Shown here piece by piece: positions 1 to 38,752 of a stretch of DNA of 38,752 bases (position 1 is the first letter of the stretch; each line of letters begins with the position of its first letter). Both the position numbers and the translations under genes were made by a program. The DNA comes from a virus, in the IMG/VR virus record IMGVR_UViG_3300009085_000015, positions 1 to 38,752 of that record; one strand, given 5' to 3'. Below the pieces are notes generated by a model. It saw only the letters and a list, made by a program, of their open reading frames with translations, was not told the DNA's origin and ran no database searches.

Positions 1-123
1 GCCACGGTTTGAGAGTAACCAGGCACTAACCAAAGCACCAAGAAGGCCAAGGATATACAGTATTTTTTTCCACACATCAAAACCCCGCCAGAGTAAAAAT
101 CGTGATGACAACACCGACCGCCA
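1..123. repeat. Terminal direct repeat, left copy
   Basis: These 123 bases are identical to the last 123 bases of the window. The simplest reading is a circular genome opened by the assembler, with a unit length near 38,629 bp. A true short terminal redundancy is possible but a 123-base overlap is also what an assembly of a circular or permuted molecule produces. Positions 1-77 therefore repeat the 5' ends of the nested lysis genes annotated at 38,284-38,706. Confidence 0.97.
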
Positions 124-202
124 AAATCAGGCAGAAATAGCCGAGGATGTAGTTTTGTTCGAAAAAATCATAGATGCTGTCAAGCAGACTCTTTTTTTGC
201 AT
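77..202 (-). CDS. Small single-span membrane protein in lysis cassette
   Basis: A 41-residue protein starting MQKKSLLDSIYDFF, with one hydrophobic segment at about residues 20-40 (GYFCLILAVGVVITIF). Its start lies 23 bases inside the end of the upstream holin-like gene and is preceded by AAGGAG ten bases before the ATG. Its TGA overlaps the start of the next lysis gene as TGATG, which predicts coupled translation. Size, topology and position suit a second holin, an antiholin or another lysis modulator, but no family was recognised. Confidence 0.7.
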   Translation of the reverse strand: MQKKSLLDSIYDFFEQNYILGYFCLILAVGVVITIFTLAGF

Positions 203-437
203 TTCCGGTAATCTCCTTAATCATTTGGTTGGTGACAAGTCCCCAGAAATAAGCACCAGATACGACCAAGGCACCACCAGGGCCAAGGCGCAATACCACA
301 TCCCAAACAGTGACACCTTCTACCATTGGCTGTATAGACGCAATGGTGAGAAGCACGGCGCCCCATACGATAAGAGCAAGTCCAATCACCTTGCGCCCTG
401 ATGGTTTTCCATCCCTGCCATTAAGTATATCGAGCAT
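180..437 (-). CDS. Holin candidate, two transmembrane segments
   Basis: An 85-residue protein with two predicted membrane helices (about residues 17-34 and 52-70), a charged N-terminus (GRDGKPSGRK) and a basic C-terminal tail. It follows the cysteine peptidase by one base and has AGGTGG upstream of its ATG. A two-helix protein directly downstream of the presumed endolysin is the usual holin arrangement, so a pore-forming lysis-timing role is inferred from topology and context rather than sequence similarity. Confidence 0.65.
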   Translation of the reverse strand: MLDILNGRDGKPSGRKVIGLALIVWGAVLLTIASIQPMVEGVTVWDVVLRLGPGGALVVSGAYFWGLVTNQMIKEITGNAKKESA

Positions 438-438
438 T

Positions 439-873
439 TTACACCACCTTTTTGTATATTCTCTTTGATCTTACATCGCCTTCTCTAACTGTTCTTGACC
501 CAGGAAATGGATCAATCATGCACTTGCCTTTTCCATCTCCAAGAACAAAATGAGTATACCCTGTTCTTTTATTAAAGTAATCAAGAATTTCGTATTCATC
601 ATTGTTGCAAACATAATTTGCATCGCGCTTTCCAACAAAAATAACTTTGTTTTTACCACAGAAGTCTTCAATAATTCCATCTGGATCAAGTATGGTTGAT
701 TCAATATCAATATCACCATCATCTTTGTAGTTTTTGAACCATTTTATAATAACCTCAGAGGCTGAAAAATCAACGTTGGTAGCAATAGAAACCATATTTA
801 CTATACTTATATAGTAGCATCCCCATTCCTGGATCGGGTTAAGGTTCTTGTCATTTTGTGTCCACAGTTTCAT
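439..873 (-). CDS. C39-like cysteine peptidase, endolysin candidate
   Basis: A 144-residue protein laid out like a papain/C39-fold peptidase: Gln15 and Cys19 in IQEWGCYYIS, His108 in YTHFVLGDG, and Asp121 in MIDPFPG. This order (Gln, Cys, His, Asp) is that of the catalytic residues in C39-like enzymes. It also resembles the short DUF261-type proteins I associate with spirochaete genomes, from memory and unverified. No signal peptide is visible, so holin-dependent export fits. It overlaps the preceding gene by ATGA and is followed by the holin candidate. Cleavage of peptidoglycan cross-bridges is inferred. It could instead act on a protein. Confidence 0.6.
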   Translation of the reverse strand: MKLWTQNDKNLNPIQEWGCYYISIVNMVSIATNVDFSASEVIIKWFKNYKDDGDIDIESTILDPDGIIEDFCGKNKVIFVGKRDANYVCNNDEYEILDYFNKRTGYTHFVLGDGKGKCMIDPFPGSRTVREGDVRSKRIYKKVV

Positions 874-1169
874 GCCTTCCCCCAGAAGTTAATTATCATC
901 GCGCTTGCAAACAAAAGTATCGCGGTAAAATAAGGTGCGAGGCTTTGTATCTTCATTTGCTTGGACGAATTGTGTTCTTTGATTGTGGATAGAATCAACT
1001 GTCTTGTTTCGTTCGGTTGCATAAGTCCCGCCACCTGTAGCTCACGAATCGCTACACGACCTTTTTCAATCTCTTGTTTAACTATATGCAATTCTTTGGC
1101 GGTAGTCTCATGATCTTTTTTTAATAGTGCTATTTCCATACATATCTCATCGTTTGTTTTTGGTGCCAT
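870..1169 (-). CDS. Coiled-coil protein with C-terminal membrane anchor
   Basis: A 99-residue protein with a long charged helical region (about residues 8-75) and a single hydrophobic C-terminal segment (about 78-97, YFTAILLFASAMIINFWG). This is the layout of XhlA-type haemolysin/holin accessory proteins. The start is supported by GAGAGGA six bases upstream, and the gene overlaps the six-helix protein before it by 23 bases. Its stop overlaps the peptidase start (ATGA). A role in lysis is inferred from position and topology. Confidence 0.6.
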   Translation of the reverse strand: MAPKTNDEICMEIALLKKDHETTAKELHIVKQEIEKGRVAIRELQVAGLMQPNETRQLILSTIKEHNSSKQMKIQSLAPYFTAILLFASAMIINFWGKA

Positions 1170-1692
1170 GATTTATCCTCTCTACCAAGTCCATAGCCCT
1201 GGCCGTAATGCCTTCACTTTTCGTTATAGCATTGTAAGCCCTTTCGAGTTTTTCGTAAAGTATCATAAAGATAGTTGCTATTATGAAATTGGTGAAAATG
1301 AACCACATTATGGCCACATCAAATGGACTTATCGTAATAAATATTATCACGGCAAGAGAAAAGAACGTGCCAATAATCTTTATGAAGAGATTGTTTTCAT
1401 AAAAATCATAGGCATATAATACAAAAATCTCTACTATTAGAATTGCAGTCCCAAACATTAGATTTTCATTGAACATAAGAGACAAACCAGATGCAATAAG
1501 AAAAGAAAATATCTGCAATAGCTTTGATGCTTGTGAGTCAACTATTGCAGAGTACCCAAATGCTGATACATACAAAATGAATGTTGCTATGTAAAAAAGT
1601 TCAATGTCGCTGTTTATTTTAATTGAGTTTGCTACAAGGGTAATTAGAGAAAGTATAAAAAATACAAGCCCAATCCTCCTTTGTAGGCTCAT
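1147..1692 (-). CDS. Six-helix integral membrane protein, function unknown
   Basis: A 181-residue protein with about six hydrophobic segments (near residues 7-22, 32-50, 58-73, 79-95, 103-120 and 126-146) and a basic soluble tail of about 35 residues. The gene is markedly more AT-rich than the tail genes upstream, which suggests separate acquisition. It sits between a hypothetical protein and the lysis genes. No family was recognised. A host-takeover or superinfection role is as plausible as lysis. Confidence 0.7.
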   Translation of the reverse strand: MSLQRRIGLVFFILSLITLVANSIKINSDIELFYIATFILYVSAFGYSAIVDSQASKLLQIFSFLIASGLSLMFNENLMFGTAILIVEIFVLYAYDFYENNLFIKIIGTFFSLAVIIFITISPFDVAIMWFIFTNFIIATIFMILYEKLERAYNAITKSEGITARAMDLVERINHGTKNKR

Positions 1693-1693
1693 G

Positions 1694-2071
1694 TTAATAC
1701 CAGTATCCCCTTGAAGCAGTCTCTACCGAAAACACCGCCTGAACGTCTGGATACAATGCCTCATCAGCTTCGATCTCTTTCTTGATTCCTTCGGCTTCTG
1801 CCATCGCATCATCATCACCATGCTCTATCGCGTAGTGGGAGGCCACAGCCAGGGTAGCCAACTTCTTGCAGAACTCGCGCTTCTTTTCGTTCTCGCATGG
1901 CCAATCAAACAGAAAACCAATGCGGTCTTCAGGGGATTCGCATGGTTCACGCTTAAACTCTTTTCCTTCTGTTTCAACCTCGAAAACAATACCGGCCACC
2001 CTGGAATGTTTATTGGCGCTGACAGCACCGCACAGCTCAGGAGCAGACTCAAGCAACTTTTTTACGCTCAT
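1694..2071 (-). CDS. Hypothetical protein after tail fibre
   Basis: A 125-residue soluble, acidic protein with no recognised family. The segment MAEAEGIKKEIEADEALYPDVQ is helical and charged. The start has GGAG six bases upstream (ATAGGAGATACCA). It lies just downstream of the tail fibre gene behind a hairpin and a 23-bp element shared with the leader of the major tail protein gene, so it may be transcribed separately. Its position between fibre and lysis genes could fit a fibre chaperone, but nothing in the sequence proves that. Confidence 0.7.
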   Translation of the reverse strand: MSVKKLLESAPELCGAVSANKHSRVAGIVFEVETEGKEFKREPCESPEDRIGFLFDWPCENEKKREFCKKLATLAVASHYAIEHGDDDAMAEAEGIKKEIEADEALYPDVQAVFSVETASRGYWY

Positions 2072-2080
2072 TGGTATCTC

Positions 2081-2103
2081 CTATATTCAAGTTTTAGTAT
2101 ATA
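2081..2103 (-). repeat. 23-bp element, copy 1 (promoter-like)
   Basis: This segment matches 11,624-11,646 exactly. On the minus strand it reads TATATACTAAAACTTG followed by AATATAG, with TATACT in the -10 position and the start of the transcript included in the match. The -35 region here is poor (TGGATT), unlike the other copy, so this may be a weak or activator-dependent late promoter. Confidence 0.5.
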
Positions 2104-2106
2104 GAT

Positions 2107-2130
2107 AAGGCATGGAATAATCCATACCTT
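2107..2130 (-). terminator. Hairpin after tail fibre gene
   Basis: On the minus strand a 9-bp stem (AAGGTATGG with CCATGCCTT, one G-T pair) closes a 6-base loop just after the tail fibre stop codon. No T-run follows, so it may be a weak terminator or an mRNA-stabilising hairpin. Confidence 0.4.
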
Positions 2131-2135
2131 GCCTG

Positions 2136-3116
2136 TCATATTTGTGCGATCACCAGCGCCCATGCGTCATAGCCATCGGAGGCTGATACAACTTGCGCCC
2201 ATGTTCTGCCCTGCAAAATACTCTCATCAACACCAACAGGATTCCTGGCAAGCAAAACCCTGATTTGACCTGCTGTGATCTTTGCTATCCTAATTGGAGC
2301 TGGCCTTGAGTTTGATGAATTTCCCACATCAATATACTGTGATACAAAATTACTGATATTCAGCGAAGGTACCCCAGCAATCTCCACCGGCACCGTATTC
2401 CCATCAACCTTGCTCCGCACCACAATCTTCGGCACTTCATCCCGTAGCAATGGCCTGTCAAGCAAAACATCGTAGTAGGTAGCCACAGTATTATTCAAAA
2501 TCGGCGTCCACTGCCCCTTGGTGGTCTTGCCAGTAACGCCATTAGTGTTGACCACGGCCTCGCTATTTCCATACCAATCACCACCTTGTCTGCCCCAAAT
2601 ATAATCCGTTGCGGTTGCCTTCTTAAACTCAACTGCCGTGTACTGGCCAGACGCAACAAACGAAAATGTAGCCGATCCGTTTATTGTCTCTGCACCGACC
2701 GTATCAACGGTGATTGCACCTCCTGCAATAAGCCTGATGATGTTAAATGCCTTCCCGAGCGGTAGCGCGTTAGGTATCGACACCGTGATTGCGGAAGCAG
2801 TGTTGACAAAGATATTTTCATCGGTCCCGAGTATGGTGTAATTACCAGTGATTGTAGCTTGTGTTTTTACGCCCACTGATGCAAGTGCAGAATCAACATA
2901 ACCCTTGGTGGTTGCTTGATTTGATGCGGTAGGCGTAGGCACAACCACAGACCCGGTAAACGTAGGGTTCGACTTTGGAGCCGCCAAATCAGACACCGGC
3001 AACTCCGCAAGCGTGGCATTGACTGTTATGCCGTTTCGCACAAGCGGTACGATCTCAGCTCCTGTCAACGGCGGTGGAGTACCTGGGTTTAGATTAGATA
3101 TTGTTATTTTAGCCAT
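2136..3116 (-). CDS. Tail fibre or receptor-binding protein
   Basis: A 326-residue protein. The N-terminus (ITISNLNPGTPPPLTGAEIV) matches the attachment motif common to phage side-fibre proteins, followed by a repeat-like segment (NPTFTGSVVVPTPTAS) and the TTKGYVDSALAS motif found before the shaft of many fibres. Residues 100-180 are beta-rich (TITGNYTILGTDENIFVNT). The C-terminal third, from about 190, is probably the receptor-binding head. It is the last tail gene, begins one base after the tail tip gene and has GAGAGGG upstream. Assignment as fibre is strong. The receptor is unknown. Confidence 0.8.
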   Translation of the reverse strand: MAKITISNLNPGTPPPLTGAEIVPLVRNGITVNATLAELPVSDLAAPKSNPTFTGSVVVPTPTASNQATTKGYVDSALASVGVKTQATITGNYTILGTDENIFVNTASAITVSIPNALPLGKAFNIIRLIAGGAITVDTVGAETINGSATFSFVASGQYTAVEFKKATATDYIWGRQGGDWYGNSEAVVNTNGVTGKTTKGQWTPILNNTVATYYDVLLDRPLLRDEVPKIVVRSKVDGNTVPVEIAGVPSLNISNFVSQYIDVGNSSNSRPAPIRIAKITAGQIRVLLARNPVGVDESILQGRTWAQVVSASDGYDAWALVIAQI

Positions 3117-3117
3117 G

Positions 3118-4902
3118 TTATACTACCCTCTCTGTTAAAATCATCGTAACTTTATTGGACAAAGCCCCGAATTGTGGATCTATGCCGATAATCTGCGCCT
3201 TCCACCGTCCGAAGTACGGCCTTCCGTTATTGGTCAGGTCGATATACAGTGTATCATAAATCCTCATTTCGTAGTAATCAGGTCCATGTAATTCGCACGA
3301 CAATACCGGCCTAATCTCTGATAGTTTCTGCGCGGTCCATGTGCCACGGGCAATAGCGTCAACCTCATTGGTAAGAAACGTGTCAACCGTAATTTCTGGT
3401 TTCTGTCGGTAGGCGTCAAATGCAGCCTGTTGATAGTCCGTATTCGTGACAGAAAGGAACGTCCCTTCATTCCAGTCTTTGTTGTACCGAATCTTGGCAG
3501 AAGCAAAGAATATGGAAGAATCGGTATTGATTGAAAGAGTTTTATTGTCCTTGATGTCAATTACCGTGATTTCTTCCCGCGGTACAAAAGCCCAAATAAT
3601 GTCTCCGCTTTCGGTCGTAATTAGTTGTCCGTCTTCGGTGGCAAGCTGGGCATAGTATGTGGGAGTACGGAGCCAATTGTCTATGCGTATGGTACGGTAT
3701 CCATCGGGCCGGATCTCGTACCGAAAACCGATGTTCGCACCATTCTGTAGTAGCCTGATTGCCTCGTACAATTCCATCTGCCCCAGGACTACGCCAACAG
3801 GGTCAAGCATGGCAGATTCTGCGGTCCATTCTTGGATGTCGTAGAATGATTCGTTAAAACCGATCCCAAGTACTCTTTGGTTCAAATCTATGATTACATC
3901 GGCAACGGTAGTGTTTGGTATGCCGACCGGAGCCAAGAGTCGTACTTTCTTCGGCGTTCCGGAAGCCGTTCCATCTTCACGCCCAACGGCGGCTGTCAAG
4001 GTAAAGCTACCATTGGCAAGGTCAGTAGTGTTTGCTGTAACATTGACCCATTTCTTGGTTGTCTCGTTAAAGGTCTGTATAGTCCCCATGCTTGATAGTG
4101 TAACACCTGCACGGTATGAAACTATGCCAGTTGCACCTTCTGCCTCGTTTACAAGGCATTTGGCTGTCCGTACTGACCCGTAGATTAACGGCACATCCTC
4201 ACCCCTGAGCGTTACGGCTGTGAGTATCTTGGAGTTCTGGCTCTTGCGTTTGTCTTGTACCCGGACGTCAAAATTTGGCATTGAGTATCCAAAATCCTCA
4301 ATATAGAATGAAGCCAGGTTGATGAGATCCGACCTCCTTGGATCGGTTATGGTCGAATCAAGGTAGTATAGATTGAGGTCATTGCCGTAGATGTTTTTCG
4401 TAATGTACTGGTCGAAATAATTATCAACATTGTCAAAAGAAACAGTTCCTGAGATGAACGCAAGCCGGTCATAATTAACCATGTCGGCCTTTTGCGCTAT
4501 ACGTGGAACTCCACGAATGTATGGAAGGTACTCTTCGCCCTCGATGTAGACAACGCCAGAGTCTGTAAATCCCTGGCCAAGCCCGATGGAATAGAGGGTA
4601 TAGTCTGGCCACGAGGTATGCGTGATATGCGCGTAGCCAACCTGGTTGATGTTGTCCCAATAAAATGACTGCTCGGTGGCTATGCAATCAGCTACCGAAA
4701 ACACTCGCCGGTACCTGATGTTTGGGTTTTCAAGGAATGACGTTACGTTGATTTCCTCCGTCGAGTCATCACCCTGGGCTCCGAATGTTGTGGTCCAGTA
4801 TGGTGCGGTTGTGCGCCTACCTGGTCGCCAAGAATAGACGAATGGCGCGAAGTTGGCCATGGGCTTGAGTGGAATGTATATGGTTAGTTCGGCGATTAGC
4901 AT
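3118..4902 (-). CDS. Tail tip or baseplate hub protein
   Basis: A 594-residue protein with a mixed beta-rich sequence and no membrane segments. Features include an N-terminal beta region (AELTIYIPLKP), the segment GYSMPNFDVRVQDKR near the centre, and LRGEDVPLIYGSVRTAKC, a stretch resembling hub proteins that form the tail tip. The C-terminal part (YFGRWKAQIIGIDPQFGALS) looks like a small structural domain. It lies among tail tip genes downstream of the tape measure. A structural role is well supported by position. Whether it is the central hub or a minor tail protein is not settled. The start has no clear Shine-Dalgarno site but follows the preceding stop by one base. Confidence 0.65.
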   Translation of the reverse strand: MLIAELTIYIPLKPMANFAPFVYSWRPGRRTTAPYWTTTFGAQGDDSTEEINVTSFLENPNIRYRRVFSVADCIATEQSFYWDNINQVGYAHITHTSWPDYTLYSIGLGQGFTDSGVVYIEGEEYLPYIRGVPRIAQKADMVNYDRLAFISGTVSFDNVDNYFDQYITKNIYGNDLNLYYLDSTITDPRRSDLINLASFYIEDFGYSMPNFDVRVQDKRKSQNSKILTAVTLRGEDVPLIYGSVRTAKCLVNEAEGATGIVSYRAGVTLSSMGTIQTFNETTKKWVNVTANTTDLANGSFTLTAAVGREDGTASGTPKKVRLLAPVGIPNTTVADVIIDLNQRVLGIGFNESFYDIQEWTAESAMLDPVGVVLGQMELYEAIRLLQNGANIGFRYEIRPDGYRTIRIDNWLRTPTYYAQLATEDGQLITTESGDIIWAFVPREEITVIDIKDNKTLSINTDSSIFFASAKIRYNKDWNEGTFLSVTNTDYQQAAFDAYRQKPEITVDTFLTNEVDAIARGTWTAQKLSEIRPVLSCELHGPDYYEMRIYDTLYIDLTNNGRPYFGRWKAQIIGIDPQFGALSNKVTMILTERVV

Positions 4903-4903
4903 G

Positions 4904-5995
4904 TTAGTACTCGATTACGATGAGGGCTGGACCGCCTTCGCCACCAAGGATGAGTTGACCCCCACTGTTGCTATCACCAGCACCTCCACCACCTCCACCT
5001 ATACCACCAGGGCCACCGATCCCTCCGACGCCACCTGTATTTGTCTCTCCAAACTCTCCTCCTGCTCCACCAGCTCCTTGCCCTCCAGATTCTGCGACAC
5101 GCCCGGCGCTACCACCAGTGCCGTTAAAAATACTCGCCATCCTTGGCTTTCCACCTATCCCTCTCAACCCTCCTGGTCCACCAGAGCCACCCCCGCCCCC
5201 GCCATGACCACCAAAACTAACGCCCCCAGGCCCGCCAGGACTGCCAACCCCACCAATGCCACCACCTCCAGCACCATTGGCAGAGCTACCGGTACCACCA
5301 GCAAATCCATTTGACGCTCCACCTGACCCAACACCACCAGTCCCGGCAGTGGCACCAGAAGCATTGCCTCCACGACCAAGACTTATATTTAATGCTCCTC
5401 CTACAAAAGTACTTGCTCCGGTGTTTGATATGATTATGGTGTATGTGGTATTGGGCGTAACTGGAATATTGGTGTCAACAAGGTGTGCTCCAGATCCACC
5501 ACCTCCCCCGCCAATAGTTCCACTTGGGCTATTGGCCCCATTACCACCAGCCCCAACCCCGTTAAACAATATTGAATTAACCCAAGGAGGGCACACCCAT
5601 GAGTATGTACCTGGGGCCGAATAAACCATCTTGCGCCTGTAAATCTGTCCAATAAGCACCAGATTTCCACCAGAATAATACCCATTATGCACCGAGTTCC
5701 ACGACACTCCCGAAAGATTGGCCACAAAAGAAGCAGTAGCCGTAGACCCATCTCCACTTGGCGTAATCACCACATAATCCGATGGAGTGCCAGTGATATT
5801 ATTGGTAGCGGTCACAGAATCCACCCGGTACACCGTCCCACCAATGTAAAAGGTGGCCCCTATTGTCATAGCAGTGCCAGACCACGGAATGGTACCAAGC
5901 CCGCTAAAAATCGCGTCTATTTCGTTATTCTGTGCCTGGTAGTCCCCTACCGTCAAAGGCAGGCTATTCGGCCCCGTGATCCTATTTATCGCCAT
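4904..5995 (-). CDS. Glycine-rich tail adhesin
   Basis: A 363-residue protein. The first ~130 residues form a fibre-like base (INRITGPNSLPLTVGDYQAQ; EIDAIFSGLG), followed by YSAPGTYSWVCPPWV, a conserved opening of phage glycine-rich domains. From about residue 150 to the end it is dominated by glycine runs and GG-x-GG repeats (for example GGVGSPGGPGGVSFGGHG). Such polyglycine domains in phage adhesins pack as polyglycine-II helices and carry receptor-contacting loops. It overlaps the upstream stop as TAATG with GGAGG before it. Host binding is inferred from composition and place. Confidence 0.75.
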   Translation of the reverse strand: MAINRITGPNSLPLTVGDYQAQNNEIDAIFSGLGTIPWSGTAMTIGATFYIGGTVYRVDSVTATNNITGTPSDYVVITPSGDGSTATASFVANLSGVSWNSVHNGYYSGGNLVLIGQIYRRKMVYSAPGTYSWVCPPWVNSILFNGVGAGGNGANSPSGTIGGGGGGSGAHLVDTNIPVTPNTTYTIIISNTGASTFVGGALNISLGRGGNASGATAGTGGVGSGGASNGFAGGTGSSANGAGGGGIGGVGSPGGPGGVSFGGHGGGGGGSGGPGGLRGIGGKPRMASIFNGTGGSAGRVAESGGQGAGGAGGEFGETNTGGVGGIGGPGGIGGGGGGAGDSNSGGQLILGGEGGPALIVIEY

Positions 5996-38221: not shown

Positions 38222-38258
38222 AGATACTCCTTCATTGTTCCTCCAGACATGGGTGTGG

Positions 38259-38285
38259 CCTTCGTAGAAATACGAAGGTTTTTTT
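38259..38285 (+). terminator. Terminator of early arm
   Basis: CCTTCGTA, tetraloop GAAA, TACGAAGG, then seven T. It ends at the stop codon of the convergent lysis gene. Confidence 0.92.
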
Positions 38286-38706
38286 ATTTAATCACCAGCC
38301 ACACTAAAAGACCGGCGTTGACTCCAATAGAAATATTGCGTTCAAGAATCGCTTGATCCAAGTTTGCTTTTGATTCTTTCTCTAAGATCTTGCGAATCTC
38401 TGACAAGTTCTGCATCGCTTCGGATAATTGCATCAAGTTCAGATTTTCGCTCTTGATTTTCTCGTTCTCTGTCTGCATTGTTACCAACAATGGCTCTAGC
38501 TTCGTCAATCGCTCGTCCCTGTCGGTCAATTGCTGATCCTTGGCGGTCAATAGATTGTTTTGTTCTATCACTCGACTCTCTAATCTTTCGTTCATTTTCA
38601 TCAATTCGCTTCGCTGTGCTTTGAGTTCTGCCACGGTTTGAGAGTAACCAGGCACTAACCAAAGCACCAAGAAGGCCAAGGATATACAGTATTTTTTTCC
38701 ACACAT
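38284..38706 (-). CDS. Coiled-coil lysis protein, outer frame (spanin candidate)
   Basis: A 140-residue product: signal-like N-terminus (MCGKKYCISLAFLVLWLVPG, likely cut after SQ), a long coiled coil (about 24-120; QRSELMKMNERLESRVIEQN) and a C-terminal hydrophobic segment (ISIGVNAGLLVWLVIK). The ATG overlaps the preceding TGA as TGATG with GGCGGGG upstream. A second gene is nested in another frame starting two bases later. This resembles nested Rz/Rz1 spanin genes, though neither product is a clear lipoprotein. Confidence 0.65.
   Translation of the reverse strand: MCGKKYCISLAFLVLWLVPGYSQTVAELKAQRSELMKMNERLESRVIEQNNLLTAKDQQLTDRDERLTKLEPLLVTMQTENEKIKSENLNLMQLSEAMQNLSEIRKILEKESKANLDQAILERNISIGVNAGLLVWLVIK
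38342..38704 (-). CDS. Nested coiled-coil lysis protein (inner spanin candidate)
   Basis: A 120-residue product read from GTG at 38,704, two bases after the ATG of the overlapping gene and using the same GGCGGGG site. N-terminal membrane segment (WKKILYILGLLGALVSAWLL, 2-21), then a charged helical region with repeats (TKQSIDRQGSAIDRQGRAID) to the end. An N-terminal anchor followed by a periplasmic coiled coil is the layout of an inner-membrane spanin. Whether both frames are translated is not proven by sequence alone. Confidence 0.55.
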   Translation of the reverse strand: MWKKILYILGLLGALVSAWLLSNRGRTQSTAKRIDENERKIRESSDRTKQSIDRQGSAIDRQGRAIDEARAIVGNNADRERENQERKSELDAIIRSDAELVRDSQDLRERIKSKLGSSDS

Positions 38707-38752
38707 CAAAACCCCGCCAGAGTAAAAATCGTGATGACAACACCGACCGCCA
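38630..38752. repeat. Terminal direct repeat, right copy
   Basis: Exact copy of positions 1-123. It covers the last codons before the contig end of the two nested lysis genes and part of the small membrane gene. Confidence 0.97.

Follow-up and report, generated by a model that had tools for sequence, protein, structure and literature searches.

The window, by which we mean the whole 38,752-nucleotide stretch of viral DNA that was analysed, carries near its right-hand end two nested reading frames, here called A and B, whose start codons overlap. The features of this locus and of the cassette to which it belongs are as follows.

38284 to 38706, minus strand: gene A, opened by ATG at 38706; 140 residues with a signal-peptide-like N terminus (GYS|Q), a long helix and a C-terminal transmembrane (TM) segment
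38342 to 38704, minus strand: gene B, opened by GTG at 38704; 120 residues with an N-terminal TM segment and a long helix
38702 to 38706, minus strand: twin start ATGTG, in which the ATG of A and the GTG of B have one base in common
38710 to 38716, minus strand: the one SD-like site, CGGGGTT, at spacings of 3 nt to the ATG of A and 5 nt to the GTG of B
38630 to 38752: end overlap, 123 bases identical to window positions 1 to 123
77 to 202, minus strand: single-TM gene of 41 residues, with a stop codon (TGA) that overlaps the ATG of A; the second copy of this junction lies at 38706 to 38708
180 to 437, minus strand: holin-like protein of 85 residues with two TM segments and without a family match
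439 to 873, minus strand: DUF261 protein (PF03196, E 1.5e-18), a putative cysteine-peptidase endolysin by position
870 to 1169, minus strand: 99-residue helical protein with a C-terminal TM segment (tail-anchored helix), XhlA-like in layout only
38257 to 38280, plus strand: terminator-like stem-loop with a T run, which ends a convergent plus-strand operon directly after gene A

The whole of B lies inside A, which occupies the +1 frame of B, and the ATG of A in turn overlaps the stop codon of the upstream 41-residue gene (TGATG). An earlier note on this DNA had described an ATG at 38,706 and a GTG at 38,704 that open two frames of 140 and 120 codons from one ribosome site; the coordinates, frames and lengths are exact, and the site is a single, weak SD-like sequence (-5.7 kcal/mol). 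The same note had placed the pair in a lysis cassette, and this placement is borne out once the two ends of the window are joined through their 123-base overlap. Its ends thus join, which makes the record either circular or terminally redundant, though listed as a plain record; the remaining lysis cassette therefore lies at the other end of the window (77 to 1169), with A/B as its last gene. The pair thereby forms the end of a leftward late operon that comprises terminase, portal, coat, tape measure, tail and lysis genes. The T run beyond A was considered as its terminator and ruled out, because the stem-loop at 38257 to 38280 fits the plus strand only. Elsewhere in the window, the early operon holds the nucleotide metabolism genes ThyX (PF02511, 36643 to 37218, plus strand) and a dCTP deaminase-like gene (PF22769, 33320 to 33865, plus strand).

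Distant phage records with the same plan

Related phage records were located via terminase, tape measure and coat protein, with missing parts of some fetched, and were scanned for pairs of frames with close starts, each beginning with a hydrophobic segment and hydrophilic in its middle, the outer frame also ending in a hydrophobic stretch. A two-ORF scan of 161 loci (1.69 Mb, duplicates included) returned the window, L058, L127 and a junk row (L073), and 77 further loci (1.19 Mb) yielded L174, L184 and another junk row (L203). Scanning 238 loci (2.89 Mb) for A alone added L185, which the two-ORF scan misses, and two partly overlapping pairs, L053 and L054; this second scan in turn misses L174 and L184. 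Four junk rows (L073 and L203 from the two-ORF scan, L041 and others) were dropped as lying in unrelated genes or lacking the layout. Because the loci partly overlap and most records stop short of the lysis region, the resulting six nested pairs are not to be read as a rate. Values for them are given below in the order window, L058, L127, L174, L184, L185.

The start of B is offset from that of A by +2, +5, -7, -4, +5 and +2 nt, and in L185 the two starts overlap exactly as they do in the window (ATGTG). Between 98 and 100% of B is overlapped, and relative to B, A always reads in the +1 frame, in the six nested pairs and in both partly overlapping ones. SD energy is comparable and spacing usable for both starts in every nested pair; one SD-like site serves both starts, with the exception of L127, where two adjacent sites fit. 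The predicted plan is also common to the six: an N-terminal TM segment and a helix in B, and a hydrophobic N terminus, a helix and a hydrophobic C terminus in A, in which a plausible signal peptidase I site precedes a glutamine (YS|Q, SA|Q, SA|Q, FC|Q, KA|Q, SA|Q). All six pairs come after cassettes with an endolysin-like gene, of differing kinds: DUF261 in the window and L185, VanY/M15 in L058, and genes without a Pfam match, called endolysins by position only, in L127, L174 and L184.

Two further observations were made in these regions. Three of the six A proteins end in Phe (L185 at 20338, L184 at 18006, L174 at 12476), as outer-membrane beta-barrel proteins often do; the surrounding pattern is unlike a beta signal. 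Secreted transglycosylase-like ORFs, recognised by eye, run on the opposite strand close to where the lysis region ends in L174 (12477 to 13019, minus), L184 (18984 to 19511, minus) and L061 (18837 to 19361, minus).

The two partly overlapping pairs come from one Ignavibacteriae MAG. They resemble A/B in layout, in the +1 frame and in their place after an endolysin-like gene, and differ in that their starts are 199 nt apart, only 40-51% of B is overlapped, and the A proteins bear an IVSC motif that fits the lipobox consensus. The two copies differ at 14 of 137 aligned sites in the overlap, at 21 of 199 in B only and at 77 of 226 in A only; A is thus more conserved within the overlap and B is not, and constraint on both frames is not proven by this comparison. 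A class-wide search with the Ignavibacteriae A protein matched 3 of 294 genomes, namely the query genome and two weak matches.

The link between the six nested pairs is one of architecture, frame and position. Sequence homology of all six was rejected: block-shuffle Z-scores are low, A-B scores are as high as A-A scores, and leave-one-out profiles recover only the A of L185 (E 9e-4) and the B of L174 (E 0.012), the L127 B ORF having remained among the background sequences in runs that trained on it. The six pairs may share an ancestor or may be convergent.

No close relative of A or B was found in the collections searched. Single-sequence scans of viral contigs with A, B, DUF261 and the 594-residue tail protein, and of genome contigs with DUF261, gave no relative, and tblastn of A in the phage collection gave no match. 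With B, the same search gave three weak tape-measure matches (E 0.5), rejected as composition, and nothing was found there with the A or B proteins of L058, L185, L127, L174 and L184 as queries. A profile search of the fetched loci for relatives of A/B gave no convincing new pair; L029, L226, L234 and L157 were rejected after inspection of their profile matches. Weak Rz-like profile matches (B to phrog_214, E 0.005; A to phrog_89, E 0.025) may reflect only helical composition.

Predicted topology, folds and lipobox

Hydrophobicity predicts a membrane segment at the N terminus of B and, in A, a signal-peptide-like segment at the N terminus and a second segment at the C terminus, in agreement with the expectation that both products have a membrane segment and one of them a C-terminal one. 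Structure prediction of each protein, which the earlier note had recommended, yielded a single helix in both cases: AlphaFold2 models one continuous helix over residues 4-139 of A (mean pLDDT 85.6) and over residues 2-119 of B (mean pLDDT 83.8), from eight-row alignments that give models saying little about partners. A long coiled coil had been claimed for both products; by a simple heptad test the claim stands for the B of the window (P = 0.008) and fails for its A (P = 0.19), with P from 0.000 to 0.031 for the A of the five relatives and 0.000-0.044 for the other pairs overall.

The absence of a lipoprotein member was likewise upheld. Protein A of the window, with cysteines only at 2 and 7, has no lipobox of the form [LVI][ASTVI][GAS]C, and none was found in the A of the six nested pairs, nor was a strict lipobox ORF found on the same strand in the six cassettes. 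Opposite-strand matches occur near the pair in L058 and, as a short one, in L184. The one convincing lipoprotein ORF of the window (MKK...LTSC, 21735 to 21355, minus strand) is far from the cassette: it matches Pfam PF25682 Phage_VG64 (E 1.9e-42) and lies directly downstream of the large terminase, about 17 kb of window away from the lysis genes.

Two frames against chance

We asked how readily one frame leaves the other open by redrawing synonymous codons from phage usage while keeping one protein, with open frames counted over the overlap in 20,000 trials each. With A kept, the B frame was open in 0, 22, 0, 0, 0 and 12 trials; with B kept, the A frame was open in 57, 279, 0, 0, 0 and 0. In a harsher control, which only shuffles the gene's own codons and so keeps a bias that the overlap itself may have shaped, the counts were 1, 498, 840, 0, 2 and 2,075 with A kept and 1,817, 5,331, 2,528, 507, 1,411 and 643 with B kept. 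Neither frame alone readily explains the other in these simulations, and the assertion that random alternate frames rarely give such a pair fits the window well with redrawn codons (0 and 57 of 20,000) and less evenly under permutation (1 and 1,817). The A and B frames fit phage codon usage about equally, with the third frame worst in 6/6 pairs. When 233 loci were replaced by Markov versions, 1, 3 and 1 layout matches turned up in arbitrary places, against six in the real loci (four cassette pairs and two junk rows) by a scan that misses L185.

With both frames maintained in six diverged pairs at the level of layout, as dual coding calls for, we regard A and B as two real nested genes with high confidence. 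It is very improbable that just one of the two is a gene and that the second frame is open as a by-product of composition: hydrophobic stretches in one frame do tend to yield hydrophobic stretches in another, the A of the window fails the heptad test, and permuted codons with B kept leave the A frame open in 507 to 5,331 of 20,000 trials, but frame, start site, domain layout and place are alike in six diverged pairs, open-frame counts are near zero when codons are drawn from phage usage, and the Markov matches are fewer than the real ones, four of which are in lysis cassettes.

Clues to the host

Two clues bear on the host and thereby on whether an outer membrane is present; both are indirect, and they conflict. 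Of 173 plasmid records matched by DUF261, 172 bear the name Borrelia or Borreliella, and these matches would point to a spirochaete host; among 395 Bacteroidota genomes there was no match, and because the control was also without a match this does not show absence. The second clue is the glutamine directly after the predicted signal peptidase site in the A of all six nested pairs. According to PMC5837995, glutamine after the signal peptide is a Bacteroidetes habit (the Q-rule), and Q-values in spirochaetes are typically below 20%. A Bacteroidetes host from the glutamine alone was rejected, since the plasmid DUF261 matches are nearly all from Borrelia or Borreliella, though the low spirochaete Q-values stand against this.

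DUF261 occupies the endolysin slot in the window (439 to 873, minus strand), in L185 (19302 to 19700) and in Borrelia sp. RT1S lp30-B (L243; 3001 to 3435). When the window protein was aligned on a small scale with L185 and L127, its C19 proved an invariant Cys, and a downstream His and Asp recur by eye. This suggests that DUF261 is a cysteine-peptidase endolysin of spirochaete phages.

Comparison with known lysis systems

In the main spanin survey (PMC6139136), a two-component spanin is defined as a type II protein of the inner membrane together with a lipoprotein of the outer one, and a unimolecular spanin as a single protein with a lipobox at its N terminus and a TM segment at its C terminus; a recent dataset also filtered spanins by lipobox (PMC12596118). 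Against these definitions, B has the N-terminal TM segment and periplasmic helical domain of an i-spanin by hydrophobicity and structure prediction only, the pair has the expected place in the cassette, and the overlapping partner is in the +1 frame in 6/6 nested pairs, where +1 or -1 is called for. No outer-membrane lipoprotein with a lipobox, as an o-spanin would be, was found in A or in any other cassette ORF, and A has the C-terminal TM segment of a unimolecular spanin (by hydrophobicity only) without the N-terminal lipobox. Because A has the lipobox of neither definition, we do not file the pair as spanins. The earlier suggestion of a spanin pair is thus partly supported: nested membrane helices in a lysis cassette, with no lipoprotein member, are borne out and recur in five distant relatives, and the name 'spanin' draws on cassette position and architecture.

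Among the closest known systems is lambda Rz/Rz1, which also lies at the cassette end and in which a helical membrane protein of type II shares its DNA with a partner read in the +1 frame (PMC6139136). Here, however, it is the type II gene, B, that is nested inside, and the partner A, unlike Rz1, lacks a lipobox, is helical and carries a C-terminal TM segment. The starts of A and B lie within 7 nt of each other, whereas in the embedded spanins described in the survey the partner starts at about 0.4-0.5 of the i-spanin length. The survey criteria take no account of further topologies, one example being an inner-membrane protein of type I (N-out, C-in) whose TM segment is C-terminal (PMC6139136, section 15), and about 13% of the surveyed genomes were without a spanin. 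Protein A is predicted to have just this type I topology, which the survey named as possible and left unsearched.

A second comparison is offered by Borrelia sp. RT1S lp30-B (L243), in which a tail-anchored helix ORF, a two-TM ORF and DUF261 are followed by two short ORFs, both annotated as hypothetical proteins: one of 72 residues with an N-terminal TM segment and a basic helix (3600 to 3818), and one of 74 residues with a lipobox, LLGC (3877 to 4101). These look like a separated i-spanin/o-spanin pair. They follow the same three kinds of gene as A/B and differ in being two separate genes, the second with a lipobox; A/B therefore occupies the place where another DUF261 cassette has spanin-like genes. 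In B. turicatae lp32, no spanin-like neighbours of DUF261 were seen.

A description of such a pair was not found in the open PMC literature (including PMC8705779, PMC8776804 and PMC10136315), and within that literature A/B appears as a twin-start, lipoprotein-free arrangement not previously described.

Proposed function

From their place we infer a role in lysis for A and B, and on balance we favour a spanin-like function at the outer membrane. We propose that ribosomes reaching the end of the upstream gene would start at either the ATG of A or the GTG of B, and that starting at either codon from one site would cause both partners to be made together. B would insert as a type II inner-membrane protein, N-in, with its helix in the periplasm in the manner of an i-spanin. 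A would be exported through Sec, its signal peptide removed by signal peptidase I at GYS|Q, and its C-terminal segment would then keep it in the inner membrane with type I topology (N-out, C-in). The periplasmic helices of A and B may pair while restrained by the cell wall, and once holin and endolysin have cleared the wall, the A/B complex could reach and disrupt the outer membrane. Against this reading stands the search for a lipobox, which turned up no candidate outer-membrane anchor in A or in same-strand ORFs near the pair in the six cassettes; the low homology scores among the pairs, the heptad result for the A of the window and the much weaker permuted-codon counts of several pairs also weigh against it.

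It is unlikely that A alone acts as a lipobox-free unimolecular spanin-like protein, with B a separate i-spanin-like or regulatory protein. Protein A does combine an export signal and a C-terminal TM segment in one protein, matching the layout of the T1 gp11-type unimolecular spanins in the survey (PMC6139136), and the IVSC motif of the Ignavibacteriae A proteins fits the lipobox consensus. However, in the six nested pairs A is without a lipobox, its periplasmic part is predicted as a single helix where the survey describes a mainly beta domain for gp11 (PMC6139136), and B always accompanies it.

We also think it unlikely that the pair is a holin/antiholin-type or lysis-timing module and not an outer-membrane disruptor. 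The twin starts do recall lambda S, a dual-start holin/antiholin gene that gives two products, both in one frame unlike A and B, from neighbouring start codons, and every predicted anchor of A and B is in the inner membrane. The cassette, however, already holds a two-TM holin-like gene and a tail-anchored helix gene, long soluble helices are un-holin-like, and the position equals that of the spanin-like pair in Borrelia lp30-B. That A and B are a secreted coiled-coil pair with another job, such as superinfection exclusion or envelope modification, placed by chance at the late operon end, is improbable: the lysis assignment does derive from place, and Porphyromonas phages have secreted proteins that follow the Q-rule and whose function is unknown (PMC10367356), but the arrangement recurs after different endolysins in six genomes.

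For the spanin-like function that we favour, the wider implication can be drawn only tentatively. It is possible, though we would not yet call it probable, that A and B exemplify lipoprotein-free two-component outer-membrane disruptors, built from two inner-membrane proteins, one of type I and one of type II, with antiparallel periplasmic helices and encoded from overlapping starts with one ribosome site. Such disruptors would be widespread in phages that count as 'spanin-less' by present criteria and whose diderm hosts, probably including spirochaetes, are poorly studied. The locus itself would be a compact case of dual coding, in which about 360 nt carry two frames whose start codons are 2 nt apart, and gene callers that reject overlaps would retain at most one of the two genes. 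In six diverged phage records, a topology that the survey left out is predicted to be paired with an i-spanin-like protein, and with these defined genes the question of how lipoprotein-free phages open the outer membrane becomes testable.
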